Positions 2,266-35,285 of a DNA stretch of 36,101 nt are shown here, in pieces. Numbering within the stretch: position 1 is the stretch's first letter; every line of letters begins with the position of its first letter. Both the position numbers and the translations under genes were made by a program. Origin of the DNA: Patescibacteria group bacterium. GTDB lineage: Bacteria; Patescibacteriota; Patescibacteriia; UBA2591; JAQUPP01. The DNA lies in the NCBI GenBank assembly GCA_028717225.1, contig JAQUOF010000005.1, forward strand, positions 1 through 36,101, in the 5' to 3' direction. The notes beneath the pieces are model-generated. The model saw nothing but the letters and a program-made list of their open reading frames with translations, ran no database searches and was not told the DNA's origin.

Positions 2266-4191
2266 TTATTTTTTCTTTTGTTCCGCCCACCAAGATAAAA
2301 TTTCTTTGGCTGCCGGCGCGGCAAAAGACGAACCTTCACCTCCATTTTCCACTAAAATAGTCAAAGCTATTTCCGGATTTTCATAAGGCGCGAAACAAGT
2401 AAACCAAGCATGATTGCCCTTGCCTTCTACTTGGGCTGTGCCGGTTTTACCGGCGACTTGAATCGGTAAAGTATTTAAACTGCGGGCGCTGCCCGTCGTG
2501 ATTGTTTGACGCATTCCTTCTCTGACTAATTCCAAATATTTTGCATCAATAAAATTTTCTCTGATAATTTGCGGCTGAATAATTATTTTTTGGCCGGTTT
2601 CCGGATTATCAATTTCTTTAACCAAGCGAGGTTGAAAAAGAGTTTTACCGTTAGCAATGGCCGCCGTATAATTCGCCACTTGAATCGGCGTGACTAAAAT
2701 ATTACTCTGGCCAATGGATAAATGATAAGTATCGCCGATATACCATGGCTGTTTTTGAACATTTTCTTTATAATCGGGAGTCAGTAAAAAACCGGTTGCC
2801 TCGCCTTTTAAATCAACACCTGTTTTGCTGTTCAAACCAAAAAGTTCGGCATATTGAATAATTTTTTCCGGCCCAAGGCCTTTAAAATTTCCAAATCCTC
2901 CGCCAATGTAATAGAAAAAAGTATTAACCGATTCAGCTAAAGCTTTTTTAAAATCAGTCACCCCGTGCCCGCCCGCTTTCCAATCGGCAAAAAACCACTG
3001 CCCGATTCTCACTCCTCCAGTAGAAAGAATTGTTGTTTTTTCGTTAATAATACCTTCGGCAAAAGCAGCGGCTATTTCAATCGGCTTAAAAATTGAACCG
3101 GACGGATATTGGCCGCTGATCGCCCTGAAAAATAAAGGTTTATAGGGATCTTCTATTAAATTTTTAAAATCACCGGCGCTTGCTTGAATAAAAATATTAT
3201 TATCAAAAGTCGGCCAGCTGACAATAGCCAAAATCTCGCCGTTTCGCGGATCTATTGCCACGGCTGATCCGGCGCGAGCGCCGGCAGTTTTAATATAATG
3301 GCTTAAAACGTCAGTAACTTTTTTTTGCAAGCCCGCATCAATGGTTAAAATCAAATCTTGTCCGGTTTGAGGTATTTTTTGGCTGGCGATTCTTTTTTCT
3401 CTTCCAAGCGAATCAACTTCAATATTTGTTTCTCCATTTTCTCCTTTCAAAATATTTTCATAATTTAATTCCAATCCTGTTTTGCCGAGAGAATCAGTCA
3501 TTGAATATTCTTTATTGTCAGCCAATTCTTCCGGAGTAATTTTACCCATATAACCGATAACGTGCGAAAAATATGTAGGGTCAGAATATTGCCTTTTCGG
3601 TTCTACGATTACGGAGACACCCGGCAATTCTTCTAATTTTAATTTTATTGCTTCTTTATAACTCAAATTATCTTTTAATACAACGGGGTACACTGATTGA
3701 TTGGGTTGATCAGCCGTAAGTTTAGATACCTCCTCTTTGGTGGAATTATCCAATGATTCTCCCAAGAAAGATAAAGTTTTTTTAACAATTTCTATTCTTG
3801 TTTCTTTATTTTTGGGTAAATCCAAAGGCGTTATTATTAAAGAAAAATTAGGCGTATTTTTAACTAATGGTGTCTGATAACGATCATAGATAAGTCCTCT
3901 GTCTGCCTTGATCGTTTCAACGCGGATTCTGTTGCCTTCGGCCATATTTCTGAATTCATGGCCGGAAAAAACTTGAAGCCAAAAAATTCGGCCGAATACA
4001 ATCGTCGAAACCGCAATCATTAAAAAAATAAAAATATTGAGAGATTTTTTCTCCATAGGCAAAACTATCGGCCCGGCCCAATTTTCTTCCGGCGGCCAAT
4101 AATTACCCGCATATCGGCGCTGATTAAATCCTTCCAAATTTCCGTCTCTGATATTTTTGTCTTCTTGTTTAATTTTAAACGGATCGTCCAT
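2266..4191 (-). CDS. mrdA: penicillin-binding protein 2, elongasome transpeptidase
   Basis: This class B PBP is a D,D-transpeptidase that cross-links peptidoglycan during side-wall growth with RodA, MreC and MreD. The 641-residue protein has a long cytoplasmic N-terminus of about 48 residues and one membrane anchor (NIFIFLMIAVSTIVFGRI). A PBP dimerisation/pedestal domain follows (about 75-270) with RGLIYDRYQTPL. The transpeptidase domain carries all three catalytic motifs: SIFK with nucleophile S366, SVN at 421-423 and KTG at 582-584. It closes the run that contains mreC and mreD; mreD ends 23 bases upstream. No rodA or mreB lies in the window. An FtsI-type PBP3 is less likely, because mreC and mreD are directly upstream. 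Confidence 0.95.
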   Translation of the reverse strand: MDDPFKIKQEDKNIRDGNLEGFNQRRYAGNYWPPEENWAGPIVLPMEKKSLNIFIFLMIAVSTIVFGRIFWLQVFSGHEFRNMAEGNRIRVETIKADRGLIYDRYQTPLVKNTPNFSLIITPLDLPKNKETRIEIVKKTLSFLGESLDNSTKEEVSKLTADQPNQSVYPVVLKDNLSYKEAIKLKLEELPGVSVIVEPKRQYSDPTYFSHVIGYMGKITPEELADNKEYSMTDSLGKTGLELNYENILKGENGETNIEVDSLGREKRIASQKIPQTGQDLILTIDAGLQKKVTDVLSHYIKTAGARAGSAVAIDPRNGEILAIVSWPTFDNNIFIQASAGDFKNLIEDPYKPLFFRAISGQYPSGSIFKPIEIAAAFAEGIINEKTTILSTGGVRIGQWFFADWKAGGHGVTDFKKALAESVNTFFYYIGGGFGNFKGLGPEKIIQYAELFGLNSKTGVDLKGEATGFLLTPDYKENVQKQPWYIGDTYHLSIGQSNILVTPIQVANYTAAIANGKTLFQPRLVKEIDNPETGQKIIIQPQIIRENFIDAKYLELVREGMRQTITTGSARSLNTLPIQVAGKTGTAQVEGKGNHAWFTCFAPYENPEIALTILVENGGEGSSFAAPAAKEILSWWAEQKKK

Positions 4192-4724: not shown

Positions 4725-5528
4725 TTATGGGCGAGATTTTAAAATTATTGACGCAATTCTCAAGTCCGAAAGAGACTTAGGTGACTTAATAACCGCTTCT
4801 TGAAAAACGGCATTTGGTTTTTTATTAATTTCAGCTATTTCGCCGATTATTAATCCCCTCCTGATATTTTCTTCCAAACCGGAAGTAATAATAATATCCC
4901 CTGTTTTTATCGCTTTATCAAGTGGAATATAATTCATTTTCATGGTTAAACCGTATTCCCCCTGCACTATTCCGGAAACTGAATCCGGGTTCTCGCCTTT
5001 TATGATAATATCAGCGGCAATCTGCGAATGGCTGTCAAAAATCGGCTGTAAAAATGAAAGATAGTCTTCAACTTTTATTATTGTGCCGACTAAAGTTCCA
5101 TTTTCATCAACAACCGCCAAACCGATATTTACGCCGTCTTTTTTGCCTTTATCAAGCAAAAACCAAGTATAACCGGTTTCTATTCTTTTACCGATAATAT
5201 TGGCCAGAACAAATGAGTCCTTGGAATTATTTAAAAAATTCAAATGATTTTTCAAGGTTTGATTTTCCGTTTGATATATTTGAAGCTTGGTATTTTCAGT
5301 TTTAAGATTATTTATTTCATTTTCCAACGCCGATTTATCATTTTGCCAATTTTGACATTCAATAAAATTTTTCGGGTGACCGGAAATTTTATAAGATAAT
5401 TTTTCAAACGGTGTTAATAAGAAAAAAAGAGTGCTTTTTCCTCCATTGGAAAAAGCAAAAAAAAGCAAAACTATTACTATAAAAAAAATAACCACTCTTT
5501 TTTTAATGATTAAATCATTCATTGCCAT
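4725..5528 (-). CDS. mreC: rod shape-determining protein MreC
   Basis: MreC links the cytoskeleton to PBP2 in the periplasm or extracytoplasmic space. The 267-residue protein has a short cytoplasmic tail, one membrane helix (VVIFFIVIVLLFFAF, about residues 12-27) and a coiled coil (about 60-100, ENEINNLKTENTKL). The MreC beta-barrel core follows, with GYTWFLLDKGKKDGVNIGLAVV, the central GTIIKV segment and ITSGLEENIRRGLIIGEI near the end. Length is normal. The ATG at 5528 begins 12 bases after the stop of the calcium-repeat membrane protein gene upstream, so the elongasome genes probably share its transcript. Confidence 0.95.
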   Translation of the reverse strand: MAMNDLIIKKRVVIFFIVIVLLFFAFSNGGKSTLFFLLTPFEKLSYKISGHPKNFIECQNWQNDKSALENEINNLKTENTKLQIYQTENQTLKNHLNFLNNSKDSFVLANIIGKRIETGYTWFLLDKGKKDGVNIGLAVVDENGTLVGTIIKVEDYLSFLQPIFDSHSQIAADIIIKGENPDSVSGIVQGEYGLTMKMNYIPLDKAIKTGDIIITSGLEENIRRGLIIGEIAEINKKPNAVFQEAVIKSPKSLSDLRIASIILKSRP

Positions 5529-5540
5529 ATTAATAAAAGA

Positions 5541-7133
5541 TTATTTTTTTGGTTCATTTTCATCAATAATAGGGCCATCCGAAAAAATTTCGGTTATTGG
5601 AATTTCTATGACATTCGCCCATTTATAACCTAATTTTCCAAAAATATCTCCGGATTTAAAAGCTCTTTTGCTGCCGCTTTCAATTAAATAAACCGCCGGA
5701 CTATTCGGATATTTTATTAAAGTGCCGTCCGGCCTTGAGGCAACAGGTGCAGACGGAACAATAAATTGAAAACTGTTAATCAGTAATTTAAAAGTAGCTT
5801 TAAAATTAGCTTCTTTTTCCGTGCCGACATTATAAGAAATCACATAAACATTTTCATCTTTGGAAATATAAATTGTCAAATGATCGGAACTCCAAAGAGC
5901 CGGTTGATTATTGACAGTAATTGTAGTTAATAAACCTTTTTCCGTTGTCGGAGATTGTTTAGAATACCAATCAATCAAAGACAATTGATCCGGATTTTTT
6001 TCCACGCTCACGCTGAAAAATTCTCCGGTATTGGTGATTACCAAAACTTCTTCATTGTTGGTTTCCGGAATTGCCCTTGTTATCCATGAAGACGGATAGA
6101 AAAAACTGTAGGAGAAAGTTGAGTTGGTGTAAATATTTACCAAACCGGCGGCTGAAAGTTTATTCTCTCCCGCTTGCAACGGATCGGTTAAATTAACTAT
6201 TTCCTGGCCGTCGCTGATGCCATCGCCGTCAGTATCAGGATTACTAACACCGGTGCGATAAATCGTTTCTTCCGTATCAGTTAAACCGTCTTGATCAGAA
6301 TCAATGGTGGAAGAAATTTGCGGCGCTATTTGAAATATTTCTGTTGTAGGAGTTACTTTATTTTTCGGAACGATTAAAGCAAAAGTATCGGACGGCAGAA
6401 GGTCCAGTTGAGCGGTAATTAAATTATTTTCCGCGTCTTGCACGCTTGATAAAGGAGTCCAAATATTATCTTTTAAATAACCCAAAACAATATCATTTTC
6501 CCAATTGCTTTCAACAATTTTATTATGGTAAAAAGCTCTTAGGGTTGCTGATTTTTGCAGAATGAGATTAGTGGATTGAATTTTATAAATTCCCCCAACA
6601 ACTTTATAATCATTAAAAACATCTGCATCGGTTACGGCCTGAGAAGTTAATTCAATTTTTAAATTCGGATCAACGGCTCCGGCAGGCAAATAAAATTCCA
6701 ACCAAGAAACAGTTTCACCTCCTTGATCTTTTATCTCTGCTTTTAAGGTCTGTTCAATTGAAGTATTCGCAGTTGGAATAGAAGGAGAATTATTATCTTC
6801 AGGTTGAGTAATTGCCGGAATTTGATTAATAACAGGAATATTTGGATGATAATTTGTTATCCAAAAATAAAATCCCAATCCTCCGCCGACAATAATAACC
6901 AAAAGGCATAAAATTAAAACAAGAGATTTATTTTTATCTTTTTTTGATAATTTGCGCTGGGCTTTGCGAAATTTTTCCGGCATAACATAAATCATTTCCC
7001 CCGTATTTCCATATTGAGTTACTTCTTCCATAATCTCCTTTTTAGCCGCAGCCGGAGGATTAGAAAAAATATCCTGCACTTCGGGAGTGTTTATTTTTTG
7101 AGGTTCCGGTTGTATAGGTGTTTCTTCTGGCAT
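5541..7133 (-). CDS. single-pass membrane protein with calcium repeats and shared C-terminal module
   Basis: The 530-residue protein has no secretion signal at its start. A cytoplasmic tail of about 70 residues, containing VQDIF near residue 20, leads to one helix (SLVLILCLLVIIVGGGLGFYF). The outer part has several segments: a ZU5-like beta domain (about 130-260), two thrombospondin-type-3-like calcium loops (DSDQDGLTDTEE and DTDGDGISDGQE), and a PsbP-like segment (SYSFFYPSSW onward). It ends in a module of about 55 residues (GTLIKYPNSPAVYLIESGSK) that recurs in the 2310-residue giant at 24943-31875. It sits 14 bases after the 202-residue TSP3 membrane protein and 12 bases before mreC. An envelope scaffolding or adhesion role is inference; the exact function is unknown. 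Confidence 0.85.
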   Translation of the reverse strand: MPEETPIQPEPQKINTPEVQDIFSNPPAAAKKEIMEEVTQYGNTGEMIYVMPEKFRKAQRKLSKKDKNKSLVLILCLLVIIVGGGLGFYFWITNYHPNIPVINQIPAITQPEDNNSPSIPTANTSIEQTLKAEIKDQGGETVSWLEFYLPAGAVDPNLKIELTSQAVTDADVFNDYKVVGGIYKIQSTNLILQKSATLRAFYHNKIVESNWENDIVLGYLKDNIWTPLSSVQDAENNLITAQLDLLPSDTFALIVPKNKVTPTTEIFQIAPQISSTIDSDQDGLTDTEETIYRTGVSNPDTDGDGISDGQEIVNLTDPLQAGENKLSAAGLVNIYTNSTFSYSFFYPSSWITRAIPETNNEEVLVITNTGEFFSVSVEKNPDQLSLIDWYSKQSPTTEKGLLTTITVNNQPALWSSDHLTIYISKDENVYVISYNVGTEKEANFKATFKLLINSFQFIVPSAPVASRPDGTLIKYPNSPAVYLIESGSKRAFKSGDIFGKLGYKWANVIEIPITEIFSDGPIIDENEPKK

Positions 7134-13700: not shown

Positions 13701-14937
13701 TTAAAGAAATAGAAAATCCTTGAAATTTATCTTTAACGATCAATATTTCCTCACCAACCGCCGTGCCTGATTCAGCATCTCGAGAAGCTAATTTTTCTAT
13801 TTTAAAACTGGTAGGAATAGGATGTCCATCTTTATCGGCTATTGTATCAAAATCTACGCTTTCGCTAAAATTCAAATCAATAATCGGCGCTCTGGAAACC
13901 CACTGATTCGGTTTTGCCGCATCATTGGTCGGATAAGTTTTATTCAAATAGGGTGCTTCGGTGTCTACAATATTATTGGTCGTAAAATCCCAAACAACAG
14001 TATCACCGTCCGAACAATGATATTTAGGTTTAAATCCGGTACTGCAACCACTTAAAGAACGACTGGGATTATAGGTATCCTTAATTGATTTTGGAATAAT
14101 AACATTATATTTAGTATCCGGATCCCAAATAGTTTGAGGAGTAAACAAAACCGAATTGCCGGAAATTTTCCAAACTCCCTGAATTGCTTGCTTTGTTGTA
14201 TCGGTATTTTTAACAACTTTTAAAGTTTGATCGGTTATTACCGCGCTTACTTCATTAGAATTTAAACTATAATTGAAAAATGGTTTTATTTTACTGCAGC
14301 GATAAACTTTTGCGTCTGGATTTGAAGTTATATTATCTGTGTCAAAAGAAGCTTCACCGCTCTTCATAAGCAGAGATGTGTAATCCGGAGAATAACGACA
14401 AGTACTTTCTGCAGGAATGGTACATTTGCAATTCGCATCAAATTTCATACCTATGCTGTTGTCGCAACAAGAATCAGGCGTGCAACAATTGCTTCCTACA
14501 CAATAAGTTGAAGGCCCCGTAACTTCCATAATTCTATTAATAATATAACTGCCGATGGCATAAGCCAAAACAATGATTAAAATGCCGATAATGCCGGCTA
14601 TCATTAATTTTTTGGCTTCGGAAATTTTCTTTTCATCTCCGCCCGAGGTCATCCATTTAATACCGCCTGCAATAATAATAACCGTTGCCGCCAATCCAAG
14701 TATGCCTAAAACAATTTTCATTATTCTGCCCATGGCCGTCGGAAGTTCTGTATTTGAATAACCTGACGCATTCTGGAAATTAGTCAGACCGTTATTCAAA
14801 TCTTGCGCTTTTGTCAAAACCGGATTTAAAACAAAAAATAAAAATCCGGATATCATTAATAAACACAAAAAACCTAAAAATATATTTTTTTTCAATTGTT
14901 TTTTGTTCACCCTTTGGCGAATTATTTCAATTTTCAT
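7789..14937 (-). CDS. giant surface protein: T4SS-pilin-like N-terminus, Ig/TIG/LamG domains, pseudopilin-like C-terminus
   Basis: This 2382-residue protein starts with a signal-type helix (residues 20-44, likely cleavage near TKAQ). Two hydrophobic helices at 70-135, joined by GGIKWMTSGGDEKKISEAKK, match the type IV secretion pilin family common in CPR bacteria. The exposed part contains several bacterial Ig-like (Big_5-type) domains between about 205 and 580, two IPT/TIG-like domains (about 587-795) and a cysteine cluster of 18 Cys in about 90 residues (806-895). Further on are a LamG/concanavalin-like domain (about 958-1175, IIDEVRIYNKAL), more Ig-like domains and a carbohydrate-binding-like beta domain (about 1900-2050). 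The last 250 residues resemble a GspG/type IV pilin head (LVRIQDIRTMSQKLTDYK, NGYYP, KDPW). It follows yqeY by 22 bases. Adhesion or cell contact is likely; the exact role is inference. Confidence 0.85.
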   Translation of the reverse strand: MKIEIIRQRVNKKQLKKNIFLGFLCLLMISGFLFFVLNPVLTKAQDLNNGLTNFQNASGYSNTELPTAMGRIMKIVLGILGLAATVIIIAGGIKWMTSGGDEKKISEAKKLMIAGIIGILIIVLAYAIGSYIINRIMEVTGPSTYCVGSNCCTPDSCCDNSIGMKFDANCKCTIPAESTCRYSPDYTSLLMKSGEASFDTDNITSNPDAKVYRCSKIKPFFNYSLNSNEVSAVITDQTLKVVKNTDTTKQAIQGVWKISGNSVLFTPQTIWDPDTKYNVIIPKSIKDTYNPSRSLSGCSTGFKPKYHCSDGDTVVWDFTTNNIVDTEAPYLNKTYPTNDAAKPNQWVSRAPIIDLNFSESVDFDTIADKDGHPIPTSFKIEKLASRDAESGTAVGEEILIVKDKFQGFSISLINPNLLDSFTWYKITVANVKDLCGNSMAVPQSWKFETNDVVPGVSDYWPKDKNVCPDEPIGVSFATSMYNNTIAIQGKIGGNIVFQSSIKPIKELEAAVMARDGNTQIGKIKVMDADVDNISTQFKVFEIELNNNLTAATYSINVTTDLVMDVDQNTLGKKWDFTTTDLTKCACSPVIYRVTPDSGSRKSCVTVFGRCFQGTASRKAAITTFQFDDKYPVVLPAQPRINGEDGPINATVESSGPDFITTTIPAVFGDPATDISDSLGVRVGITYDDTSKSETVSWDRFLVDDNSESTGPCLLSINPSSGYPKGDPSETKVSFNGLRFGAKNIDSKIIFYNQSAAAFSEANWSDTQVRDVLVPVDTQTGDVVIKNSNGTSNGLPFKVLFRTPKPGDKCQDVSCPNNFGSCSAPYQCKSGADTCRCCCNPKQQNSCGTGGLTCLANQGNCKGSDENPRGLCCGCKNDAQCGTGVGCGILDPNKCCHPQPIIINASKSPAGGEINVCKNASISMTFDNLMDHDSLNENNIKLLSSDVDPGYETDIEEGMVALWHFNEGTESIVKDTKGLNNGTISGPTWVDGKFGKALEFDGARGDNGGDYITVPDNSSLDLQKLSLDVWIKISKGATADKNRMVILAKGDEGITAKNNYVLDLYRNGPNTGQWQPGFIVGTGTHPNLTNVRGSTWLSEDVFYRITATYDGENLKIYVNGKLDGIQPKTFGTKDLVNAGNLVIGRQSEADSNGDYYSNFRGIIDEVRIYNKALTDEAISAPHQAKGKIVSVDDNVKKETNVYFYPFNCLLNQNSTYKIWIKGGVNGSGARSKMGVSISDTDWTFKTGNGMCHIATIKVDPTNPAALNESNQTIKFTASALDSGSRPVCVDKFDWSSQDAGIANVLPSSGLSTIATPLGKYGQTLIKAAVEDISCLTKNTCALLKFSPKELLQVEERTDCDNCSLGGQSPSPAHQSTDACTQAQIRVKFNREVAMDTTSATDNIIIQKCGTGDFNNSQCPSDNSNKIKGDFTIEKDGFYFKPAAVLEKNIIYRVTLKSGPNGIKDKFGLELDKNKNGVQDGTPNDDYTWMFIATNDNCSLKKICLNPAGVNQITHPATQPYHTEIYTANCNYLNPEDYNGQYSWGSSDKTVAAIEASTDYNNIATSKKLGETDITVSTTIAGDQPVSSSSHLIVATQPIVNNTKPTDKAIDVCRNTVISATFDQLMDRTTLNPDTIKLYKYCPVAASLEKNNIFVRFFNNLKNIFLKKVEAGKTVIYDLKADISAVDNNTTKQTTVYINSGLLDASGVCTYQVEISGKEGIAGKQNVVKSQYGVEMADNNSWTFNTGADICKLSKVEISAEEVSDTVNPANTDPGKPIISSTSVEFYKKDSTVKFSAKALDNKGAEIHGVSDYDWTWSWDSSKPNVVLVPISNNSSQTATAQNQNGDSKIKVTAKITDTSKSDIGKSFSATAQAKVFLCEFPWKFEDSATNFKLQYCRGNSGKNLVLNGAMSDGVNGWSANQQVSISTVKKSNYNVLKATNNKSGSTPGVISANWITVFPNTQYTVSMAAYRTGSAQAYIYVQGKNASSYTNLVWYGAAIPVDTLAKISNTFTTGANDTAIKVGILWSGSVKNDVIYMTNVQLEKGKSATEYQNFPSLPNLILTKETLGTTGNLVKQFFFTLDNDKIGLQVFKNQDYLIPSEWYNMAPNPNGSLSNITVDGYKAVQDEQTVYVGATNTDNNKDNIKGLIYLISHTNNYTPETINIYNQLVKYWQFNANKDAQGNYLISQDDKAKIQRDLVRIQDIRTMSQKLTDYKLTNGYYPKLESGSFIKGMTVSKWPSWKNPQGQFISNMSDDPTNQFVGTCAESDAGQWGGTCYNQSKSIYECPANSQVYQYMVTDSGADYRLYLNLETGLKNWLMGCNDYRIQKDCEAHYLCGWTTKCQQKVFGYSSNVYKCFNSVYGPILENTKKDPWTNEMGGVVLK

Positions 14938-17385: not shown

Positions 17386-17769
17386 TTATTTTGCAACAAT
17401 ATATTTGCTGATTTTATCCAAAATATCGGTCAAATGAACATTGGATTTAATCAAATAATCCACTGCGCCAAGTAATTTACCCTTGGCCACTTCTTTATCC
17501 TGACCGAGATTTGAAAGAATAACCACCGGAATCATACTGCCGACCGGGTCATATTTCAATTTTTCCAGAACTTCAAAACCGTTCAATTTCGGCATTGAAA
17601 GATCAAGTAAAATTAAATCCGGTTTTTCTTTAATAGCCAAATTAAGCGCTCGCTCGCCGTCTTCGGCCTGAACAACATTGTAACCGGCACTTTCAATCAT
17701 GCTAGCTAAAATGCCTCGCATATCCGGTTCGTCCTCGGCAATTAAAATTTTTTTAATTGTTTCTGTCAT
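17386..17769 (-). CDS. single-domain response regulator (CheY-like)
   Basis: The 127-residue protein is a receiver domain alone, with no DNA-binding or enzymatic output. The acidic pocket is E12/D13 (ILIAEDEPD), the phosphoacceptor is D56 (LILLDLSMP), the switch residue is S86 (VVILSN) and the conserved lysine is K108 (DYLIKSN). It sits between the histidine kinase and the Na/Pi-PhoU gene, so it is probably phosphorylated by that kinase. With no output domain it must act through protein contact; the PhoU-like part of the next protein is a possible partner but this is speculation. The start at 17769 is the first ATG and the start positions the receiver core normally. Confidence 0.93.
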   Translation of the reverse strand: MTETIKKILIAEDEPDMRGILASMIESAGYNVVQAEDGERALNLAIKEKPDLILLDLSMPKLNGFEVLEKLKYDPVGSMIPVVILSNLGQDKEVAKGKLLGAVDYLIKSNVHLTDILDKISKYIVAK

Positions 17770-17803
17770 AATTTTAAAATTAATTAATTAATATATTTCA
17801 TTT

Positions 17804-17886
17804 ACCCCGTTAGAAGTTCCAACGGTTATTGATGTTGTCAAAATAATTTTATTCAAAATTTATATTTAAAAAACTTCTAACGGGGT
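17804..17886. repeat. 15-bp perfect inverted repeat flanking the kinase-regulator gap
   Basis: ACCCCGTTAGAAGTT (17804-17818) is exactly complementary to 17872-17886. The right arm contains the histidine kinase stop codon and its last two sense codons. The 53 bases between are very AT-rich. A competing small hairpin, CCGTT/AACGG, can form within 17807-17825. It lies inside an operon, so a partial terminator, mRNA processing site or stabilising stem-loop that tunes the kinase:regulator ratio is possible. No T-run directly follows the left arm. Confidence 0.6.
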
Positions 17887-20342
17887 GAACTAATCGGCAA
17901 GGTAAAATAAAAAGTTGTGCCTTTGTTTTCTTCGCTTTCAAACCAAATTTTTCCACCGCTTACTTCCACTAACCCTTTGGCCAGATAAAGCCCGAGACCG
18001 GTTCCCGGTTTCTGGCTGACATTATCAGCTCTGAAAAATCTGGAGAAAATTTTCTCTTGCTGTAATTTCGGTATGCCTACGCCTTGATCGGAAGTTTGAT
18101 AAAGTATTTCTTCTCCTTTTTGTTCGATCTTTATTTTTATTTCCGAATTATCCGGAGAATATTTAATGGCATTATCCAATAAAATAATAATCACTTGGCG
18201 AATTTTTTCGGAATCAATATTAACTTTCGGCAAAAGAATTGGCGGTTTTTCCACCTTTAATTTAATATTTTTCTTTTCCAAATATAATTTATATTCATCA
18301 AAAATAGGATCTAATAATTCTTCCAGTTGTTTTTTTTCTGTTTTAAAAACCAAACGACCTGTATCAAGCCGCGAAACATTAAGCAAATCATTGACCAGTT
18401 CCACCATTCTCTCGCTTCCGCGACAAATCCTCTGAACTTCTTCTTTTTCTTTATCGTCTAATTTTTCGCCTAATTTTTGAAGTAAAATTTCCGCCCCCCA
18501 TTTAATAATAGTCGCCGGTGTTCTAAGCTGATGAGAAGCCAAAGAAATAAATTGAGATTTAAGTTTATCAATTTCTCTCTCTCGGGTGATATCGCGCAAA
18601 ATAACCACTCCGCCGATAATTTGACCATTTTCATCTTTCAAAGGAGCCGCTGAACTGGCAATGGGGATCTCCCTTCCGTCGCTGGCAAATAAGACAGACG
18701 GATCAATTAAGCTGGTTAATTTTCCCCCTACTAAAGCTTGACTGATAAAATTTTTATTTTCAGTTTTATCTTCTTCTTTAAAAATTTTGAGCACCTGATC
18801 ATAAGGTTTACCCAAACAATCTTTTTCCAAAAATCCGGTAATCCGCGTAATAGCCGGATTAATCAGAGCTAATCTTTTTTCCGAATCAATCACAAAAACG
18901 CCGTCCCCAATACTTATTAAAATTGTTTCCAATCTGTTTTTTTCTTGTTCAATTTCCGCTTTGGCTATTCTTAATTCTTCGGTTCTTTCTTTCACTTTTT
19001 GCTCCAAAGTTTCGTAATAAGCTTTTAATTTCAAAGTCATCTGATTGAAACTGTCAGCCAATTGTTCAATTTCGTCATGAGTATTTATTTTTATTTGATA
19101 AAATAAATTACCTTTGCTTATTTCTTCCGCGCCTTTGGTTAATTTTTTAATCGGCGCGCTAACCATCTTGGAACTCAAAAAGGCCAAAATAATTAAAATG
19201 ACGGCTAAAACCAATAAAACGATAAAAATAAAATTTTTGGTGTTCTGAGCGCTGGCAATTACCTCGTTCACCGGAACCACTATTCCTAAACTCCAACCTG
19301 TATCCTTAATTGGATAATAAGCGATATATTTTTCTGATTGGTTAAATTTAATTGTTTCAATGCCGTTCTTGCCTTTAATCATAGACATCACCGCGTATTT
19401 TAAATCAGGATTGGAAGTTTCCAATAAACTTGATTTTCTGATTTCAGAAATTCCCAATTGTTCTTCTTTAATTCCCAAATCAGCTTGGGCTCGCACCGGC
19501 AAACTGATCAATCTGGCTTCTTTGTCAATCATAAAAGCATAACCGGTTTTCCATAATTTAATATCCAAAATGCGATTGGTAATATCTTCCAAGGTCAAAT
19601 CAACACCGGTTAACATTTTCATTTTATCATTTTGATAAACCGGGGCTAAAGCTGAAATCATTAAACCATGTCCTGTCACATCAACATATGGCGGCGTCCA
19701 TTTAACAAGTTTATTTGGATTATTAGTTTCAATTAAATCATCCCAGAACGGAGCGGCTACGCCATCTTTATTGGCATCAGCCGATAAAACATCCATGGCA
19801 AAACCGCCTTGATTATCAGGCTTGGGATCGGAATTCGGATAAAGACGATACCAGCAGTATTTATTGCCGATAATATAAATATTGTCAGTATTCGGATTTT
19901 CATTTTTTATTGTCGGAAAAATAAAATCCAAAGCAGATGATAAATTTAAATCATTTTTTACTTGGTCATCAAGCGGACACCAATTAAAAACAATGACTGA
20001 TGAAACTTCGTCGGCCGAATTTCCGTATTGCCCTTCCGGTCCTCTGAATAAACTGTCTGCTGACCAATAGTCCGGATGATAAAAAAGATCCGGGTTATTG
20101 AAAACATTAGTGGCAAAATCAGCCAAATTTTTGCTGGCCGAACTTACTTTTGACAATGACAAATTGATTTTATCAGCCTCGCTTTGAGAAAGACTTTTTA
20201 AACGATTGGTGGCTTCATTTTCCAACTCTGTTGTTGTCTTGGAAATGGAAATAAAACCGATCAAAGTAATCGGCAATAAAGCAAAAAGGGTAAATATTAA
20301 AATCAATTTAATATTAAGCCCGAATTTAAACTTCTTTTTCAT
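17877..20342 (-). CDS. membrane sensor histidine kinase (dCache-HAMP-PAS-HisKA-HATPase)
   Basis: The 821-residue hybrid-free kinase has one helix near residues 12-32, a large extracytoplasmic region (about 35-370) resembling a double-Cache sensor (WTPPYVDVTGHGLMISALAP, and VGIVVP-like ends), and a second helix near 373-395. A HAMP domain (about 395-447), a coiled coil and a PAS domain (about 475-590, SIGDGVFVIDSEKRL) follow. The HisKA domain has H604 in LASHQLRTPA, and the HATPase has an N box (LLDNAIKYSP), G1 (DQGVGIP) and G2 (GTGLGLYLAKGL). It should sense an extracellular ligand and phosphorylate the regulator downstream. A TATAAT lies only 6 bases before the ATG, predicting a leaderless mRNA. 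The terminator of the PLP enzyme gene lies just upstream, so this gene starts the operon. Confidence 0.95.
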   Translation of the reverse strand: MKKKFKFGLNIKLILIFTLFALLPITLIGFISISKTTTELENEATNRLKSLSQSEADKINLSLSKVSSASKNLADFATNVFNNPDLFYHPDYWSADSLFRGPEGQYGNSADEVSSVIVFNWCPLDDQVKNDLNLSSALDFIFPTIKNENPNTDNIYIIGNKYCWYRLYPNSDPKPDNQGGFAMDVLSADANKDGVAAPFWDDLIETNNPNKLVKWTPPYVDVTGHGLMISALAPVYQNDKMKMLTGVDLTLEDITNRILDIKLWKTGYAFMIDKEARLISLPVRAQADLGIKEEQLGISEIRKSSLLETSNPDLKYAVMSMIKGKNGIETIKFNQSEKYIAYYPIKDTGWSLGIVVPVNEVIASAQNTKNFIFIVLLVLAVILIILAFLSSKMVSAPIKKLTKGAEEISKGNLFYQIKINTHDEIEQLADSFNQMTLKLKAYYETLEQKVKERTEELRIAKAEIEQEKNRLETILISIGDGVFVIDSEKRLALINPAITRITGFLEKDCLGKPYDQVLKIFKEEDKTENKNFISQALVGGKLTSLIDPSVLFASDGREIPIASSAAPLKDENGQIIGGVVILRDITREREIDKLKSQFISLASHQLRTPATIIKWGAEILLQKLGEKLDDKEKEEVQRICRGSERMVELVNDLLNVSRLDTGRLVFKTEKKQLEELLDPIFDEYKLYLEKKNIKLKVEKPPILLPKVNIDSEKIRQVIIILLDNAIKYSPDNSEIKIKIEQKGEEILYQTSDQGVGIPKLQQEKIFSRFFRADNVSQKPGTGLGLYLAKGLVEVSGGKIWFESEENKGTTFYFTLPISSPR

Positions 20343-24942: not shown

Positions 24943-27900
24943 CTATCTCGCAGCTAAAAATTTCGGCGTGACTAAATTTTCGGCAAAATCAGAAATTGTT
25001 CCGCCATCAGAATAAGTTTCGGCTTTGGAAATAATCATTACCGGCGCTTTGCTGTAACCATTATTGGTTAAAGCCTTGGCGGATAATTTATATTTCTTGC
25101 CGCCTTGAATCAGATAAATTTGAGAAGTTCCCGTATATTTAACCAATGTTCCGTTCGGATGTTTGGTTGTGGAGTCAATCGTATCACCCAAAGGATAATT
25201 GAATTTGGATAATAAATCATCCGGCACCCAAGTCACCAATTTCCATTTTGGATCATTGAAAAGTTTCTGATAAACAGCCGAGGATTTAACCGGTCTTAAT
25301 TTACCATCGGAAACCATGAATACCGCCGTAGCGTTCAAACCGTGAAGCGACGTAGTCTTGCCTCGGAATAATGAACCGTCGCGGAATATCATTGCCAAGC
25401 CTTCCGGATATTTTGCCAATTCTTCAGGAGTAACCTTCTTGACTGTTGAAAAATCAGACGGGAAACCCCAAGAATGATAAACATTATAATGCGGGAAGAC
25501 ATGGCTCTCGCCGTCTAAAATCATATAAACCGCGGTTTTCCGAGTAGTACAAGTCGGACAAATTACCAAATCTCTATTTTTAAGATTATAAGTAATAATG
25601 TCAGCCTCTTCTGATTCAGAAATAATTATTGAAGAAATTATTGAGGAGAGATTGAAATTATTATCTCTAAACCGAGCATAGACTGCTTTTTCTCCCTTGC
25701 CGATTGGCAATAACCAAGAACGAGTAGCTTGATATGGTTCCCAATTAATATTCGCGAAATCAGACGTATTGCTAATCATCATTTCCGTAGCGCCGGTAGC
25801 ATTAATCGTCAAGACGATATTTCTTAAAGTGGTTTTTGCTGCGCCGTTATTTATCTTTAAAGATAAATTTGTCGGGCCGACTATGCCGGCATTGCCGCTG
25901 CCACCCGTGCTTCCGCCTGTTGGCGTATCACCACCATCATCATCATCCTCTTCGCCGGCCGTAACAAATTTGCCTCCGGTAATACCGCCCGGCGTAAAGT
26001 GATTCGTGGTGACAATTATTACATTATTAGTCGCATCGCGAACAACTGATTTATAATTTTCCCATGTGTTTGTGGTATCATCAAAATACTTTGGCGTAAT
26101 ATCTTCCTCTGTATATCCGTTATCAGTAATTAAATCCGGATCATAAGGGAAAGTAATTTTTACATCGCTGTCAAACTGAGTAATTTCTTGACCATTGGAA
26201 TCTTTGGCCACAAAATCATAGTTAACGCCAAGCGGTTTATCTTTAGCATCCGGTTTAACCGACACCGTAGTTTGATTTTCCTCGCCAACAGTTGGTGTAA
26301 TGGTTACGGTAACCGTGCCGCTGCTGGCCAAAGCGCCTGCCGGAATTTCAAGTTTTAAACCATTTGTAAGTTCAATAGTTTTACTATCAGTAGCGCTAAA
26401 AGTTGTGGTCTTTGATTCAGGAACAGCAACGCCTGTCGTAACAAGAGTTAAATTTTGGGTTTGAGCGCCAACCACAGTTACAACTTCAGTCGCAGCGCTT
26501 TCATAAAGAATTCCATCAATTTTGGCCGTGGCTTTAACATTCCATGTTTCTCCGGATTTAACTTTTAAAGTATAAGTTCCGTCCGAAGCCATTGTGCCGG
26601 TTCCTTTATCATCAGACCAAGCTTGTATCATAGCCTGTTCTTTGGTCCCGTCCAAGGTAACTTCACCTGTAATAGTGGCATCTGATAAACTGAATTGAAG
26701 ATCCTTGCCGGTTACATTGGTATCACCAACCGTCACGCTAAGCAAAGGCGGGTTAATTAAATCTCTTGCATCCCAAGGCGGAATACCGGCGCCAATTTTG
26801 AAAGTGCCGCTGGTAGTATTTAAAGTATAAGTGCCATCATTGCTCGTAAAAGTACCAACACCCAAACCGCCCGGACCCTTAAAATCATCCTTGGTTGTTT
26901 CATCACCAAAATCAGCATAGACCCAAACACCAGCCATACCAACATCATCCGGATCGGTAATTGTACCGCTGATTGTTTTATCAAGTTTTTTAAGTTGGAA
27001 ATTGCGAGTAATTGTTTCTTCGGCAGCAACCACTGATTTTACATCTTCGGCTACTATTTTATATTTATCGTTATCATCTCCGAAATTCATCATCGGATCA
27101 ATGAAGGCGTCAATATACCAATTGCCTGCTGAAACTTTTAATGAATATTTATCCGTAACGCTGTTTGGAGCAAATTCTGTTTGCGACCAGCCGCCATTTT
27201 CTTTATCACCATTGATAAAAGCGCGAACTCCGGTCACAACCGTATCTGTTCCAGCAGTATAAGAACCGTCATCATTGGTATCAAGATAAAATTTACCTTC
27301 AATCGTGGCATTATTCGGCGCCACCACCAAATCAATTTCTTTGCATCCGGTTGTTGCGTCAGTGCAAGTATCATCTTCGCCGACAACAACAGTCTCAGTC
27401 GCAACTAAAGTATATTTGGAACCCGGAGGCGTATTTAAACCTAATTCATAACTGCCAAGCGGAACTTTAATTTCAGTATAGCCATTGGCTAATCCTCCGC
27501 CGGCAAAACCGCCCTTATCCATACCGGCTCCCATTGCTCCGCCGCCGCTGCCTGCCGTACCACCGGTTCCCGCGTCGCCGCTTCCGCCTTGCATCATCGC
27601 CGGATTACCGAAATCAATAAAATCATTAACTGTCGGATCAGTATCTTTAACCCAAACTCCGCCCCAAATATCAGAAATACGATCGCCATCAGCATCAACT
27701 ATATTTACTTTTAATAACCCGTCGGCTAATTTTAATAAGAAATCATTATTATCCGAAGTTTGATTGGCGGTTATTGTTACTTGTTGCGGACCGCCTTGAT
27801 AAATATATTGAGTTGACATTGGCATAATCATTACGCCCCAATTTCCTTCACTGACTATTAAATCAAATCTGCCGGTATTGGAATCGGTTTGTGTATTAGC

Positions 27901-30900
27901 CCAACCCGGTCCGTTCATTTGCCAAGCATTAACCATTACATTGCCAACCGCATTACCGGCTGAATCCGTAACAGTTCCTTTAATATGTGAATTTTTCGCT
28001 GTCAAAATAAGCGTACCTGCATCAGTGGTTTGAGTAGAAATGGCTTTAATTTTAACCGGAGCAGAACCGCCATAACTCTGGCCTTGTTCACCCCAATTTG
28101 GATTAGCCACTAAATCATAGGTACCGGCCGGAACTTTAAAAGTAAAACGTCCATCAGAATCAGTATTGGCACCATTGCCTCCACCCATCATACCGCCGCT
28201 ATTGGCCATTACCCAAGAATTGGCAATTGCCGTAGCTCCGGTTGGATCTTTAACCAAACCGGTAATAATAGCATCAGCCACTTTAACTTCAAAATCTAAT
28301 CCAACATCAAGAATAGTTGCGCCTCCCGGACATGTTCCTACTGTACCGCGGCATTCCGTGCTACTATCTTCAGTAAAAGTAATTTTCTTTTGCGGTTCAT
28401 TGTAAACCCAATCCGGCTGACCCATATTCCAGTCAGGATTCACTCCCAACCACCAGCCGCCACCGGCAAGTTTTAAAGTATATGTACCATTTGCATCAGT
28501 TAATGTTTCAAAAAATCCACCACCCATATCGCGATTAGCTTGAACGCGAGCATTGGCTACTACCGCACCGCTGCCCTTTTTAGTTACCGTGCCGGTTAAA
28601 GTTTTTGTTGGAGTGGTTAAATTAATTAAATTATTCGCCTGAGTCACATTTGCTAATTTAACCGTGCCTACGTCATTAACAATATCAACAGTCAAACCAC
28701 TTGGTTGAATCCAAGCTTTATCGCCGCCCGAAGGCAAATTAATTTCCATAGATAATCCGGTTGCATTAGTCAAGCCGCCGATTCGGAAATAACCCTGATC
28801 ATCAGTTGAAGCGCCGCCCTGATTTTGCCACATTTGATCATGAATCATAATCCAAGACCATTGAACCGGTTGATCATCTGCGGTTCCGGCAACACCGTCC
28901 ACACCCGGATTCATTACTCTTCCTGTAACTTGCGGCGTGCCAAGAATAAGTTTTCCATCAGTTCCATAAGTCGTGCCTAAATCTAAACTTGCCGTTCCGG
29001 CTGCCACAGCGGAAGAAATTGTAATATTAGAATATTTTTTTGTTGAATAATTGCGATAAACAGCCTGTTCTTCGGCCGAGCCCCAACGCGGAGCTTCAAT
29101 TTCTAAAGCATAAGTTCCGGCAGCTACACCGCCAAAAGAGAATTGGCCGTTTTGATTAGTATTTGTACCATACCAACCACCCGTAGTACCACCCTGCATT
29201 GGTCCTTCAATATGAAAATTAATCCAAGCATTGGCCACGGTTGTGCTGGTATTTGGAATAACAACCGTACCGGTAATATTCGGAGTGCTTAAAATTATGT
29301 TTTTTCTTCTGCTTGATTGAGAACTGGTAACAGTAACATTTTGAACAAGTTTTCTCCCGCAAGTAATATTTCCGCAACCATTCCAAGGATTTGCTTCTAT
29401 TTCATAAGTGCCAACTGCCACACCGCCAATAGCATAATTGCCGCTGGCATCTGTTTGCGACCATTGAGAACCGGACATTGAACCTTGTGATCGCATATTA
29501 ATGCCAACATTAGTTGCGCCAATATCAGGATAATTTATTGAATCATCGCATTCAGCTTGAGTCACATCTGAATTATCATCATGTTTTGGTTTGCAAACAC
29601 GACCGGTTAAACCATTAACTGACGGATCGCTTAATAAAACAAGTAAGCTATTATTAGCAATTGTTAAAGCAGTACCCGGATCTGTTGTTTCAGTAACAGT
29701 AGTGCCGGCAACATTTATTACCATGCCTTGCGGCGCGGCATAAAGACTGCCGTATTGAATATTAATATTTAAATCCCAGTTGCCTGTAGGAACATTTAAA
29801 CTGAATGTTCCGTCGCTTTGAGTGTTCGCGCCATAACACATACCCGGTATTTGATGAGGACAAAAATTAATCCAGGCTCCGCTTTGTCCAGTTGTCCCGG
29901 TTGGATCCTTAACCACACCGGTCACATTGGGCGCTGATAAAGTAAACGCATCATCATCAACACCATCAAGAGTATCAGCTTGATCTTTTAAATCATTAGA
30001 TGTAGTTGAAGTAATGGAAACGGAAAAATTTCCGCTGGCGCAAGCACTACCGCTTGCCGGTTGAATTTGAAGATTATAAGTACCAAGCGCCACGCCGCCA
30101 AGAGAGAAATTACCACTATCATCAGTATTTACGCCATACCAAGAACCATCTTTATTCATATTTATCCAAGCGCTTGTTGCTACGCCCCCGCATTTTACTT
30201 TTCCAAAAACATTTGGCAAAGCAAAAGTTTTGACTCCCAAATCAGTGATTTGCCCATCCGTAACATCAATGGCAAATTCCGCAGTTCTTGTTCTCGGATA
30301 ACTCCTGAAATCGCCGCTATATGGCGGCTCAAGTTCTAAAATATAATGGGTGCTATCTGTTGCTCCGCCAAAATAAGCCACGCCGTCAGCGTCAGCTTGA
30401 GCCCATTGTTGATAAGACCAATCCATAGTATGAAGACCGACACTGGCATAAGGCACCGGCAAACCCGGCTGAGGATTGCTTGCTGTAGGAGTATCACCTA
30501 AAGTACCAGGAGCCTTAATCGTTACCTTAACATTTTGAGCAGATAAATTAATATTAATGCCGGTCGCAGTTTGACCAGAAGTTAAACATTGAGTAGTTCT
30601 AACACTTTTGTATTGTAAAACCCTGTCTTGATAATCTTTGGGTCTGGCTTCAATTTCATAACATTGACTGCTGGTATCATTCGGGACATAAAGTTTCCAT
30701 GTTCCATTTGGACCGGTTGTTGTTCTTTGTTCATAATCCCATGTAAAAGGGCGCGCCACCACTTCTACGCCTTCCAGTAATGTTTCGCCACTTGGAGATT
30801 TAACTGTGCCCGAAAGAGTTGCTGTTCTAAAAGCTTGAGTGGTTAACTGCGTCACCGAACCAACCACAGCCGCTTGACTGCTTAATTTGGATGGCGCCAC

Positions 30901-31875
30901 ATAAGTCGCGCCGGCCGGTGTGCCGAATTGTATATTATAACTTCCCGTCGTATTTAAAACTAAAGCATATTTTCCATTAGAATGAGTTTCGCCCGGTACG
31001 ACATTTCCCATTTGTCCTGGTACGAAAGCTTCAACTTGAACCCTATCTATATCACTGGCTGTATCTGAAGTAAGATTGCCAATCAATACGGCTTGTGTAT
31101 TATTCCAAATCATAAACGGCCTGGAATTTGCTGAGAAACGGCGCGTATTTAAATCGCTAATCACCATGTCTACTTTGCCATTTAACCCTGTTGGAATTGT
31201 AGTGGTAAGCTCAGTAGTTGAAGCGGTTGCAGGAGTGGATGTTACACTTCCTCCATTAAAATTCCAAAAAATTTCTGTCGCATCAGTGGAGGTGGCAAAA
31301 TTAGAACCGATAATCGTTACTTCATCCCCGACATTGCCGCAAGGATAATTATAACAAGAATCGGAATCAATACTGTTGATTATATAATTAATAGTCGGAT
31401 CAATAGAAGGACCGACAACATCATTGGTCGTGAAATCTTCTATGGTTTGAGTTCCGGCTAAATTTTTAATATCTCCGGCTGTCATCTGCCAAGCTTGTCC
31501 TTCGGTTAATTTTAAATTTTTTAAACCATAAATTCTTAAACGATAGTCATTTTCACCCGCCTGAAAATTTTGAGTTGACATCTCGTAAGGACTGAATCTG
31601 CTTAATGTTCTGTCTGTTAGTCCCGCTCCTGTTTCAAAAATAAAATTACGCAAATCTGTCGCGTAATTGGTTGCACTTCCTAATTCGGTTGTTGAAGATG
31701 GATTTTGTTCTATGGAAAATTCTCTATTAAATGTAATTTCCGCAGAAGTTGTTGAAACCGTAATACCAGTCACGGCTATTGGTGCTAATGCACCCGCTAA
31801 TGTGGGCAGTCCCATTGACCACATAATAGTGGTAACTGTTACGAAAATTGAAAAAAACTTTTTTGTGTTGTTCAT
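24943..31875 (-). CDS. giant secreted surface protein with carboxypeptidase-regulatory-like repeats
   Basis: The 2310-residue protein has a signal peptide (1-30, ending near LAGALA). An Ig-like domain (about 32-150) and an IPT/TIG-like domain (about 165-260) follow. About a dozen carboxypeptidase-regulatory-like beta repeats fill 265-1815, each with a pattern like TDxxGxFxxGGVxxGTYxLE. Many repeats also carry an [AS]W[IV] strand (SAWINM, GAWINF, NAWINF, SWIMIH, NSWVMAN). A Gly/Met-rich loop lies near 1425-1460. A ZU5-like domain (about 1818-1965, LKLEIPAGAL) is followed by an acidic linker (GEEDDDDGGD). The last 205 residues hold three copies of a module (GTLVKYTGTSQIYLIQGGKK) also found once in the protein at 5541-7133. 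It probably forms a long extracellular fibre; attachment through the C-terminal modules is inference. Confidence 0.85.
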   Translation of the reverse strand: MNNTKKFFSIFVTVTTIMWSMGLPTLAGALAPIAVTGITVSTTSAEITFNREFSIEQNPSSTTELGSATNYATDLRNFIFETGAGLTDRTLSRFSPYEMSTQNFQAGENDYRLRIYGLKNLKLTEGQAWQMTAGDIKNLAGTQTIEDFTTNDVVGPSIDPTINYIINSIDSDSCYNYPCGNVGDEVTIIGSNFATSTDATEIFWNFNGGSVTSTPATASTTELTTTIPTGLNGKVDMVISDLNTRRFSANSRPFMIWNNTQAVLIGNLTSDTASDIDRVQVEAFVPGQMGNVVPGETHSNGKYALVLNTTGSYNIQFGTPAGATYVAPSKLSSQAAVVGSVTQLTTQAFRTATLSGTVKSPSGETLLEGVEVVARPFTWDYEQRTTTGPNGTWKLYVPNDTSSQCYEIEARPKDYQDRVLQYKSVRTTQCLTSGQTATGININLSAQNVKVTIKAPGTLGDTPTASNPQPGLPVPYASVGLHTMDWSYQQWAQADADGVAYFGGATDSTHYILELEPPYSGDFRSYPRTRTAEFAIDVTDGQITDLGVKTFALPNVFGKVKCGGVATSAWINMNKDGSWYGVNTDDSGNFSLGGVALGTYNLQIQPASGSACASGNFSVSITSTTSNDLKDQADTLDGVDDDAFTLSAPNVTGVVKDPTGTTGQSGAWINFCPHQIPGMCYGANTQSDGTFSLNVPTGNWDLNINIQYGSLYAAPQGMVINVAGTTVTETTDPGTALTIANNSLLVLLSDPSVNGLTGRVCKPKHDDNSDVTQAECDDSINYPDIGATNVGINMRSQGSMSGSQWSQTDASGNYAIGGVAVGTYEIEANPWNGCGNITCGRKLVQNVTVTSSQSSRRKNIILSTPNITGTVVIPNTSTTVANAWINFHIEGPMQGGTTGGWYGTNTNQNGQFSFGGVAAGTYALEIEAPRWGSAEEQAVYRNYSTKKYSNITISSAVAAGTASLDLGTTYGTDGKLILGTPQVTGRVMNPGVDGVAGTADDQPVQWSWIMIHDQMWQNQGGASTDDQGYFRIGGLTNATGLSMEINLPSGGDKAWIQPSGLTVDIVNDVGTVKLANVTQANNLINLTTPTKTLTGTVTKKGSGAVVANARVQANRDMGGGFFETLTDANGTYTLKLAGGGWWLGVNPDWNMGQPDWVYNEPQKKITFTEDSSTECRGTVGTCPGGATILDVGLDFEVKVADAIITGLVKDPTGATAIANSWVMANSGGMMGGGNGANTDSDGRFTFKVPAGTYDLVANPNWGEQGQSYGGSAPVKIKAISTQTTDAGTLILTAKNSHIKGTVTDSAGNAVGNVMVNAWQMNGPGWANTQTDSNTGRFDLIVSEGNWGVMIMPMSTQYIYQGGPQQVTITANQTSDNNDFLLKLADGLLKVNIVDADGDRISDIWGGVWVKDTDPTVNDFIDFGNPAMMQGGSGDAGTGGTAGSGGGAMGAGMDKGGFAGGGLANGYTEIKVPLGSYELGLNTPPGSKYTLVATETVVVGEDDTCTDATTGCKEIDLVVAPNNATIEGKFYLDTNDDGSYTAGTDTVVTGVRAFINGDKENGGWSQTEFAPNSVTDKYSLKVSAGNWYIDAFIDPMMNFGDDNDKYKIVAEDVKSVVAAEETITRNFQLKKLDKTISGTITDPDDVGMAGVWVYADFGDETTKDDFKGPGGLGVGTFTSNDGTYTLNTTSGTFKIGAGIPPWDARDLINPPLLSVTVGDTNVTGKDLQFSLSDATITGEVTLDGTKEQAMIQAWSDDKGTGTMASDGTYTLKVKSGETWNVKATAKIDGILYESAATEVVTVVGAQTQNLTLVTTGVAVPESKTTTFSATDSKTIELTNGLKLEIPAGALASSGTVTVTITPTVGEENQTTVSVKPDAKDKPLGVNYDFVAKDSNGQEITQFDSDVKITFPYDPDLITDNGYTEEDITPKYFDDTTNTWENYKSVVRDATNNVIIVTTNHFTPGGITGGKFVTAGEEDDDDGGDTPTGGSTGGSGNAGIVGPTNLSLKINNGAAKTTLRNIVLTINATGATEMMISNTSDFANINWEPYQATRSWLLPIGKGEKAVYARFRDNNFNLSSIISSIIISESEEADIITYNLKNRDLVICPTCTTRKTAVYMILDGESHVFPHYNVYHSWGFPSDFSTVKKVTPEELAKYPEGLAMIFRDGSLFRGKTTSLHGLNATAVFMVSDGKLRPVKSSAVYQKLFNDPKWKLVTWVPDDLLSKFNYPLGDTIDSTTKHPNGTLVKYTGTSQIYLIQGGKKYKLSAKALTNNGYSKAPVMIISKAETYSDGGTISDFAENLVTPKFLAAR

Positions 31876-34370: not shown

Positions 34371-35285
34371 TTACGGCTGCAAAATATTTTCTGTCCGACC
34401 GTCAATGGAAATAATTACATTTTTAACAGTCGGAAATTGTTTTAGTGTTTCAATAATTTGAGCTCTGATGGCTGATACTTTACAAGAACCGCCGACTTGA
34501 AATTCCAATTGCTTGTCAAAATCAACTTTTGCCGTTCCGTTGTTAATGGTCAATTTTTGAATTTTTACGCCCGAATTGATACTGGAAAAAAATCCTTGCG
34601 CTTTTTCCGCTTCAGTCGCCCCTTTTAATAATTCTTCCAAAGCAGCGCGTCCGATTGCTTCTGTTTTAATAATCTTTCTTTCAACCGGAAAAACTTTATT
34701 ACAGGAAATTTCCGGATCTAATTTATTATTATTGAAATAAACTTTAACTGTTGTCGTTTCAGTCGGAGTGATAACAACCGGCACTCGCAATTCATCTGCA
34801 TTTTGCGGCAATCCCGAAGGATTGTCTTTTTCTAAAATTAAAGTTCCTTTAGTTTCAGTCAATACATTAAATTGCAAAGTAGCTGTAAAAGGCACAAAAT
34901 TTTCCGTCATCCAATCACTTTGAGCTTGGGCGATTCCATGAGCAATTTCCACACCCGAAGAATCTAAAAGTTTAATCGGAAAACTTGCTTCAAAAAACCA
35001 AGTTCCTCTCGCCTCGCCTCCTATTTCCAAAGGACTAAAAACAGTTTCATTTGGCTGAGGTTTTGTCACTTTAATGTCAGCGGTTTTATCTTCTGTCTGT
35101 TGATTATTTTTTACAGCGTTGCCGCACGATTGAGTCGGCATTGACGCACTGGGATTTCCGTGTTTTACCCACCTGCCGTTTGAACAAATCCAATTATCTT
35201 CCGGTCCGCCAATCAAAAATCTTAAAACTAAAATAATAATCACTAAAATCAGCGGGCTTAATATTATTAATCTTTTTTTTATCAT
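34371..35285 (-). CDS. membrane-anchored Gmad2-GerMN domain protein
   Basis: The 304-residue protein has one N-terminal helix (LIILSPLILVIIILVLRFL), then a short cysteine pair motif (NWICSNGRWVKHGNP and a second Cys about 20 residues on). An Ig-like Gmad2 domain follows (about 75-175, PFTATLQF and GTLILEKDNPSG), then a GerMN domain (about 180-300, VKVYFNN, LEELLKGATEAE, VKNVIISIDG). In spore formers these domains occur in germination and sporulation lipoproteins, but here the protein is probably an extracytoplasmic peptidoglycan- or envelope-associated factor. No lipobox is seen. It starts 3 bases after the DUF5661-like gene stop, so the two are co-transcribed. Confidence 0.88.
   Translation of the reverse strand: MIKKRLIILSPLILVIIILVLRFLIGGPEDNWICSNGRWVKHGNPSASMPTQSCGNAVKNNQQTEDKTADIKVTKPQPNETVFSPLEIGGEARGTWFFEASFPIKLLDSSGVEIAHGIAQAQSDWMTENFVPFTATLQFNVLTETKGTLILEKDNPSGLPQNADELRVPVVITPTETTTVKVYFNNNKLDPEISCNKVFPVERKIIKTEAIGRAALEELLKGATEAEKAQGFFSSINSGVKIQKLTINNGTAKVDFDKQLEFQVGGSCKVSAIRAQIIETLKQFPTVKNVIISIDGRTENILQP

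Follow-up and report, generated by a model that had tools for sequence, protein, structure and literature searches.

A tandem terminal module of exported Patescibacteria proteins with a predicted EccB-repeat fold and a probable role in envelope binding

Two proteins encoded far apart in the DNA of a Patescibacteria group bacterium end in what look like copies of the same unit, which raises the question of whether these copies form one family and, if so, what such a family does. The window, that is, the whole stretch of 36,101 nucleotides that was analysed, covers positions 1-36101 of a contig in an assembly of 863,584 bases. A sequence-only reading had recognized three copies at the end of a giant secreted protein and one at the end of a membrane protein, and had interpreted them as a cell-surface binding module, analogous in role to SLH or LysM repeats and unlike them in sequence. 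Both genes and all four copies were confirmed, at coordinates agreeing with that reading.

The giant protein (2310 aa; 24943..31875, minus strand) begins with a hydrophobic leader, contains transthyretin-like repeats in its middle part (Pfam CarboxypepD_reg, 8 stretches, E 2.7e-43) and ends with a triad of units (24961..25587, minus strand). This triad was matched as one block by a triad profile with an E-value of 3.4e-102, which defines its extent and does not count as independent proof, since the window triad is itself part of that profile. On the minus strand, unit 1 spans residues 2113-2167 (25375..25539), unit 2 residues 2175-2236 (25168..25353) and unit 3 residues 2239-2295 (24991..25161). 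The 530-aa membrane protein (5541..7133, minus strand) consists of a basic N-terminus, a single transmembrane helix at approximately residues 70-90, TSP3 repeats, a PsbP-like region and one C-terminal unit (residues 467-525; 5559..5735, minus strand). The repeat units of both proteins were not covered by any Pfam or NCBIfam model. Together with a 451-aa protein bearing four units and a 495-aa protein bearing three, the giant and the membrane protein make up the four carriers of this genome. A second giant (2382 aa, window positions 7789-14937) is encoded upstream of a TSP3-repeat protein gene, and zero units of the module were found in it by the genome search. Elsewhere in the window, a response regulator adjoins a membrane-bound histidine-kinase-like protein (17386-20342), and a 304-aa protein contains Germane and Gmad2 domains, whose names come from spore germination (34371-35285).

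The gene of the 530-aa protein is directly followed by mreC (4725..5528, minus strand; Pfam MreC, E 1.5e-28), by an unassigned gene at the position where mreD normally lies and, in the same gene run, by the gene of a PBP2-type transpeptidase (2266..4191, minus strand; Pfam Transpeptidase 1.4e-59, PBP_dimer 2.7e-43). A relative of mreC adjoined in six of the ten genomes with an orthologue or a unit at this place (the window, G001, G024, G014, G021 and G019); in G019 and G024 the match was to the unit alone, the whole membrane protein being unmatched. No mreC was seen within the available flank of G018, G008 and G012, and the sequence of G025 stops at the contig end.

The relationship between the copies was assessed with a held-out profile, in which 125 of 138 units were kept after removal of same-genus sequences, E-values being given for a nominal database of 1,000. 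All four window copies were detected: unit 1 with 41.6 bits (E 4.7e-12), unit 2 with 40.2 bits (E 1.3e-11), unit 3 with 45.9 bits (E 2.2e-13) and the membrane-protein unit with 71.3 bits (E 2.5e-21). The significant alignment on which the proposed family depended was therefore obtained. Pairwise alignments against 1,000 shuffles gave z-scores of 14.6 for copy 3 and the membrane-protein copy, 7.6 for copy 2 and the membrane-protein copy, and 4.2 both for copies 1 and 2 and for copy 1 and the membrane-protein copy; two of the six pairs were unconvincing (copies 1 and 3, z 2.2; copies 2 and 3, z -0.1). Twenty column-permuted profiles produced 0 matches in 776 ORFs (840 before identical ends were merged), compared to 95 with the real profile. 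An iterated profile, run on the ORFs of the window and of 52 loci (53 sequences), detected 158 units distributed over 57 ORFs, the four window copies among them. The motif that had been written down for the unit describes copy 3 and the membrane-protein copy and does not hold for copies 1 and 2, which lack a clean GTLxK start and contain small insertions. Many positions of the unit are highly variable, the best-conserved columns being hydrophobic or glycine, and a basic pair is frequent at positions 23-24 (K or R in 84%, R in 71%).

The structure of the giant's triad was predicted by AlphaFold2 from an alignment with 17 relatives (pLDDT 90.3, pTM 0.83). The modelled units show the order strand-strand-strand-helix-strand-helix, with a strand replacing the last helix in the third unit, and the predicted triad has the features of the EccB-repeat fold, namely units of approximately 55 residues built from four strands and two helices. 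When this model was compared with the PDB by Foldseek, ranks 1-10 were all occupied by EccB, a component of type VII secretion (E 5.0e-5 to 3.8e-3), followed by unrelated folds from E 0.25 onwards. The global TM-scores were low (0.21-0.25 by query) because the EccB units are spread round a core domain, the match being one of unit by unit. With VIA-align 2, EccB1 (3x3m) was superimposed on 58 residues of unit 1 at 1.8 A (Z 7.0). Ranked after the EccB chains were a Streptococcus mutans domain (Z 4.4) and the endolysin domains of LysIME-EF1 (4.3), PlyC (3.3) and Lys170 (3.3), all within the range (Z <8) in which the program itself cautions that a match may reflect a mere common arrangement. Among viral models, the leading matches were proteins of Rhodococcus phage Weasels2 (115 aa; E 2.9e-5, TM 0.71 normalized to the target) and of Streptomyces phage LukeCage (102 aa; E 9.7e-4, TM 0.68). 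The fold prediction that the sequence-only reading had proposed as a check thus led first to EccB repeats and then to endolysin wall-binding domains, a result that, as far as a predicted model goes, would agree with a surface-binding role.

EccB was not reached by sequence profiles run against the PDB, and plasmids yielded no EccB protein. Across single-unit and profile searches of PDB sequences, the best match, BurrH (E 0.012), contained no significantly aligned stretch and was discarded. Of 74 units, 3 were matched by the Pfam EccB model (PF05108) at E<=1, with 0.012 as the lowest E-value; neither window protein was matched at that threshold, nor did the model find anything in the window genome at E<=10. 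Profile-profile comparison with EccB scored 16.9, barely above the maximum of 16.67 reached among 200 permuted controls, and 10.8 with a second unit alignment.

The architecture of the carriers was analysed in a census of the 95 complete module ORFs, with orthologues counted separately; the loci had been picked for holding a match, and the census left out ORFs running off the locus (including several genes of ~1,250 aa) and ORFs of less than 100 aa. According to a hydropathy rule rather than a trained predictor, a hydrophobic N-terminus was present in 86 of these carriers and absent in nine, versus 87 of the 193 unmatched ORFs of at least 250 aa that were used as background. The units were located at a terminus in 90 carriers and internally in four, and made up the whole protein in one; four units were present in 38 carriers and three in 33. 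The matches are thus not mainly cytoplasmic or internal, and the terminal location that had been proposed stands, although not as a strictly C-terminal one, with 69 carriers holding the units at the C-terminus and 21 at the N-terminus.

Most carriers are not wall enzymes. Among the 45 that were scanned for domains, the commonest were Peptidase_S8 (six subtilases) and fn3 (six), accompanied by Peptidase_S11 (two D-Ala-D-Ala carboxypeptidases), Amidase_2 (two amidases), YkuD (one L,D-transpeptidase), SpoIID (one SpoIID-like enzyme), LysM (one) and LGFP (one). Seven adjacent same-strand gene pairs were observed in which both genes encode the module (L098:1666-5396, L103:2205-6027, L105:1390-5125, L108:615-4487, L112:2378-6168, L113:1249-4411 and L115:1100-4653), with a subtilase as one member in six of them, the seventh pair (L113) having been scanned incompletely for this domain. 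A link to the type VII secretion system was considered because the six subtilases are nearest to mycosin, and it was rejected, since they scored 166-186 bits versus a mycosin cut-off of 278.75, proteins of B. subtilis and others also match the mycosin model, and no EccB was detected in the window genome.

Regarding its distribution, the membrane-protein unit found matches in 53 of 58 related genomes (E<=0.001), and the unit profile in 31 of 116 genomes sampled from the phylum (E<=1e-5). A scan of a genome collection with the triad returned 19 loci, titled Patescibacteria, Parcubacteria, Falkowbacteria, Komeilibacteria, Jacksonbacteria or plain 'bacterium'. Four-unit proteins of ~450-480 aa recur in many related genomes. 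In the 451-aa representative (L033:1275-2627, on contig C22 of the window genome), the four units accompany a conserved N-terminal domain with a QKEQSL motif, which we take to be reminiscent of lysozyme-like transglycosylases; this domain had no match in Pfam and none in a PDB profile search, and it is a transglycosylase candidate at best. Plasmids contained no match to the 451-aa protein or to its N-terminal domain, and a search of viral contigs with the single unit was negative.

In one alignment, the giant's triad shares 37-56% identity with 14 triads that open other proteins right behind the leader peptide; where the gene is complete, these proteins are mostly ~1,200-1,550 aa long. The triad profile matched 35 of the 58 relatives (E<=1e-20), and in 22 of the 58 the match lay inside an open frame of 1,217-1,472 aa, its N-terminal position having been read in the fetched members of these 22 genomes. 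In the window assembly the triad profile revealed no second triad of this kind; one is present in a congener (locus L036). In another member of the phylum (Patescibacteria UBA4787, L054:1860-14936), the genes of the giant's orthologue and of a 1,295-aa protein with an N-terminal triad share a strand and are separated by 2.4 kb. A model of one ~1,250-aa protein (pLDDT 77, pTM 0.43) showed a string of beta-sandwich domains after the triad, and its Foldseek matches were mixed long multi-domain proteins, mostly beta-sandwich. With a model of such modest confidence and matches so mixed, this Ig-like string protein may be considered no more than an S-layer candidate.

Outside the cellular Patescibacteria genomes, the consensus query matched 138 phage records (126 Streptomyces, 5 Rhodococcus and 7 Campylobacter) and 4 plasmid records. 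In the three phage proteins that were examined (Wofford, Trina and Moab) the module is stand-alone, in 117-148 aa with no leader peptide by eye. The unit profile found two units in Wofford, two in Trina and one in Moab. Each is encoded one small gene behind a large gene, which in two of these phages carries the annotation minor tail protein, and in Wofford a holin follows four genes further on. All three proteins, from phages of Streptomyces and Rhodococcus, are members of phrog_9616, a phage family of unknown function. This family matched the 451-aa protein of the window genome at 7.3e-19 and the 530-aa membrane protein at a borderline 0.0054, and did not match the giant at 0.01. In cellular genomes, CgeD of B. 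subtilis, a glycosyltransferase of family 2 encoded among the cge genes for spore maturation, has one clear, one weak and one doubtful unit behind its glycosyltransferase domain; a CDP-glycerol glycerophosphotransferase of Priestia, whose gene is located inside a sugar-nucleotide cluster, has one unit at its end; and a single unit occurs in a Methanomethylovorans protein that also contains LVIVD and LGFP repeats. Unit-profile E-values on these relatives refer to a nine-protein set, the best scores, of 24-54 bits, being the better guide. No paper naming CgeD was found in the literature searched.

A predicted fold resembling that of a wall-spanning machine and, more weakly, that of endolysin wall binders, the location at the ends of exported proteins, the presence on wall enzymes and the placement among tail and lysis genes of phages are most simply explained by envelope binding. 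We therefore infer that the unit is probably an envelope-binding module of ~60 residues with the EccB-repeat fold that serves as a triad, as SLH or CWB2 do, and the cell-surface binding role proposed initially is to this extent supported. Each unit would form a small beta-sheet accompanied by two helices, and three units would pack as one block on the giant. Such a block, at one end of a protein, would grip a cell-wall component, presumably peptidoglycan or a polymer attached to it, so that the remainder extends outwards. The window giant would be tethered to the surface through its C-terminal triad, and the 530-aa protein, held in the membrane by its transmembrane helix, would contact the wall through its single unit. 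In relatives, the module would take peptidoglycan enzymes to their substrate, and an N-terminal triad would hold the ~1,250-aa string.

The nature of the ligand is what separates this explanation from an overlapping one, in which the module is a general binder of glycans or anionic polymers (teichoic-acid-like or secondary polymers), whether intracellular or extracellular, with wall anchoring as one use among others. CgeD and the Priestia glycerophosphotransferase start without a signal peptide and look cytoplasmic, which suggests that the ligand may be a glycan or an anionic polymer rather than the finished wall. The common basic pair may point in the same direction, in view of the basic patch through which an endolysin relative binds. 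The cellular carriers examined outside Patescibacteria number just three, and we regard this broader specificity as a serious possibility with somewhat less than an even chance of being correct.

The main rival to envelope binding is protein-protein assembly, in which units would pair across proteins into surface complexes, as EccB repeats pack in the type VII complex. The nearest structural match is indeed a machine component whose repeats pack by hydrophobic faces, the seven adjacent gene pairs encode two module proteins each, and the LysIME-EF1 and PlyC domains are also ring-forming. Single units on membrane proteins and the occurrence of the module on stand-alone phage proteins and on peptidoglycan enzymes argue against it, and we consider assembly unlikely as the main function. 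A purely structural role at the ends of proteins, as a ligand-free cap or folding unit, which could account for the strong variation and for the hydrophobic or glycine character of the best-conserved columns, is very improbable for a module that stands alone in phages and is also found on unrelated catalytic and fibre proteins, at either end.

A wider and more speculative proposal can also be made, which at present we judge doubtful: that the module is the main surface anchor of a large part of Patescibacteria, replacing SLH, with the triad holding both the Ig-string S-layer protein and giant fibres, and that it shares one ancient wall-binding fold, by descent or by use, with the EccB repeats, the phrog_9616 proteins and the domains of the endolysins. 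SLH (PF00395) was absent from all 58 related genomes, and LysM (PF01476) was present elsewhere in 52 of them. To our knowledge, no surface-protein anchor has been described in the host's class of Patescibacteria, and the literature searched contained no named anchor or surface domain for Patescibacteria. S-layers are reported for some members of the phylum in PMC13293708, and the S-layer passage in PMC9530719 concerns an SLH protein of Gracilibacteria. A module so widespread among the relatives would allow many unannotated exported proteins to be read as wall-attached, would yield S-layer candidates, would offer a natural tag to label or capture uncultured cells, and would connect the unexplained EccB repeats with wall binding.

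The module itself is unnamed in Pfam and NCBIfam, and terminal tandem anchors are as a kind already known. The closest known system is EccB, whose R1-R4 repeats (3x3m, 4kk7, 5cyu and 7nps) are, like the module, tandem units of approximately 55 residues with four strands and two helices, with a colinear profile alignment across 45 columns. EccB differs in that its repeats are set in a fixed R1-R4 order, together with a central core domain, as part of a secretion machine, whereas the module is an end unit on many proteins. The EccB1 repeats are described in PMC4769845 as a four-stranded sheet plus two helices, packing together via hydrophobic faces and likened to PlyCB (Dali Z 5.0), and peptidoglycan binding is offered there as a suggestion only. 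No paper treating EccB together with Patescibacteria was found in the literature searched.

The endolysin domains of PlyC, LysIME-EF1 and Lys170 may have a similar small fold across 52-64 residues, with weak matches (Z 3.3-4.3, 4-11% identity); they form rings of separate chains, while the units of the module are arranged in tandem in one chain. The LysIME-EF1 domain is reported in PMC7098653 to bind cell walls via a basic patch, binding being nearly abolished by R190E. Regarding the classical anchors, no match to SLH or LysM was obtained in either window protein (E<=1), so that the unlikeness in sequence expected at the outset was borne out, and the same was true for the CWB2 and LGFP Pfam models. 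The folds of SLH and CWB2 are unlike the one predicted for the module, and their triplets share no sequence match with it; these triplets are nevertheless, like the module, tandem terminal units of surface proteins, and wall-polymer binding is attributed to SLH trimers and CWB2 motifs in PMC6081394 and PMC4973711.
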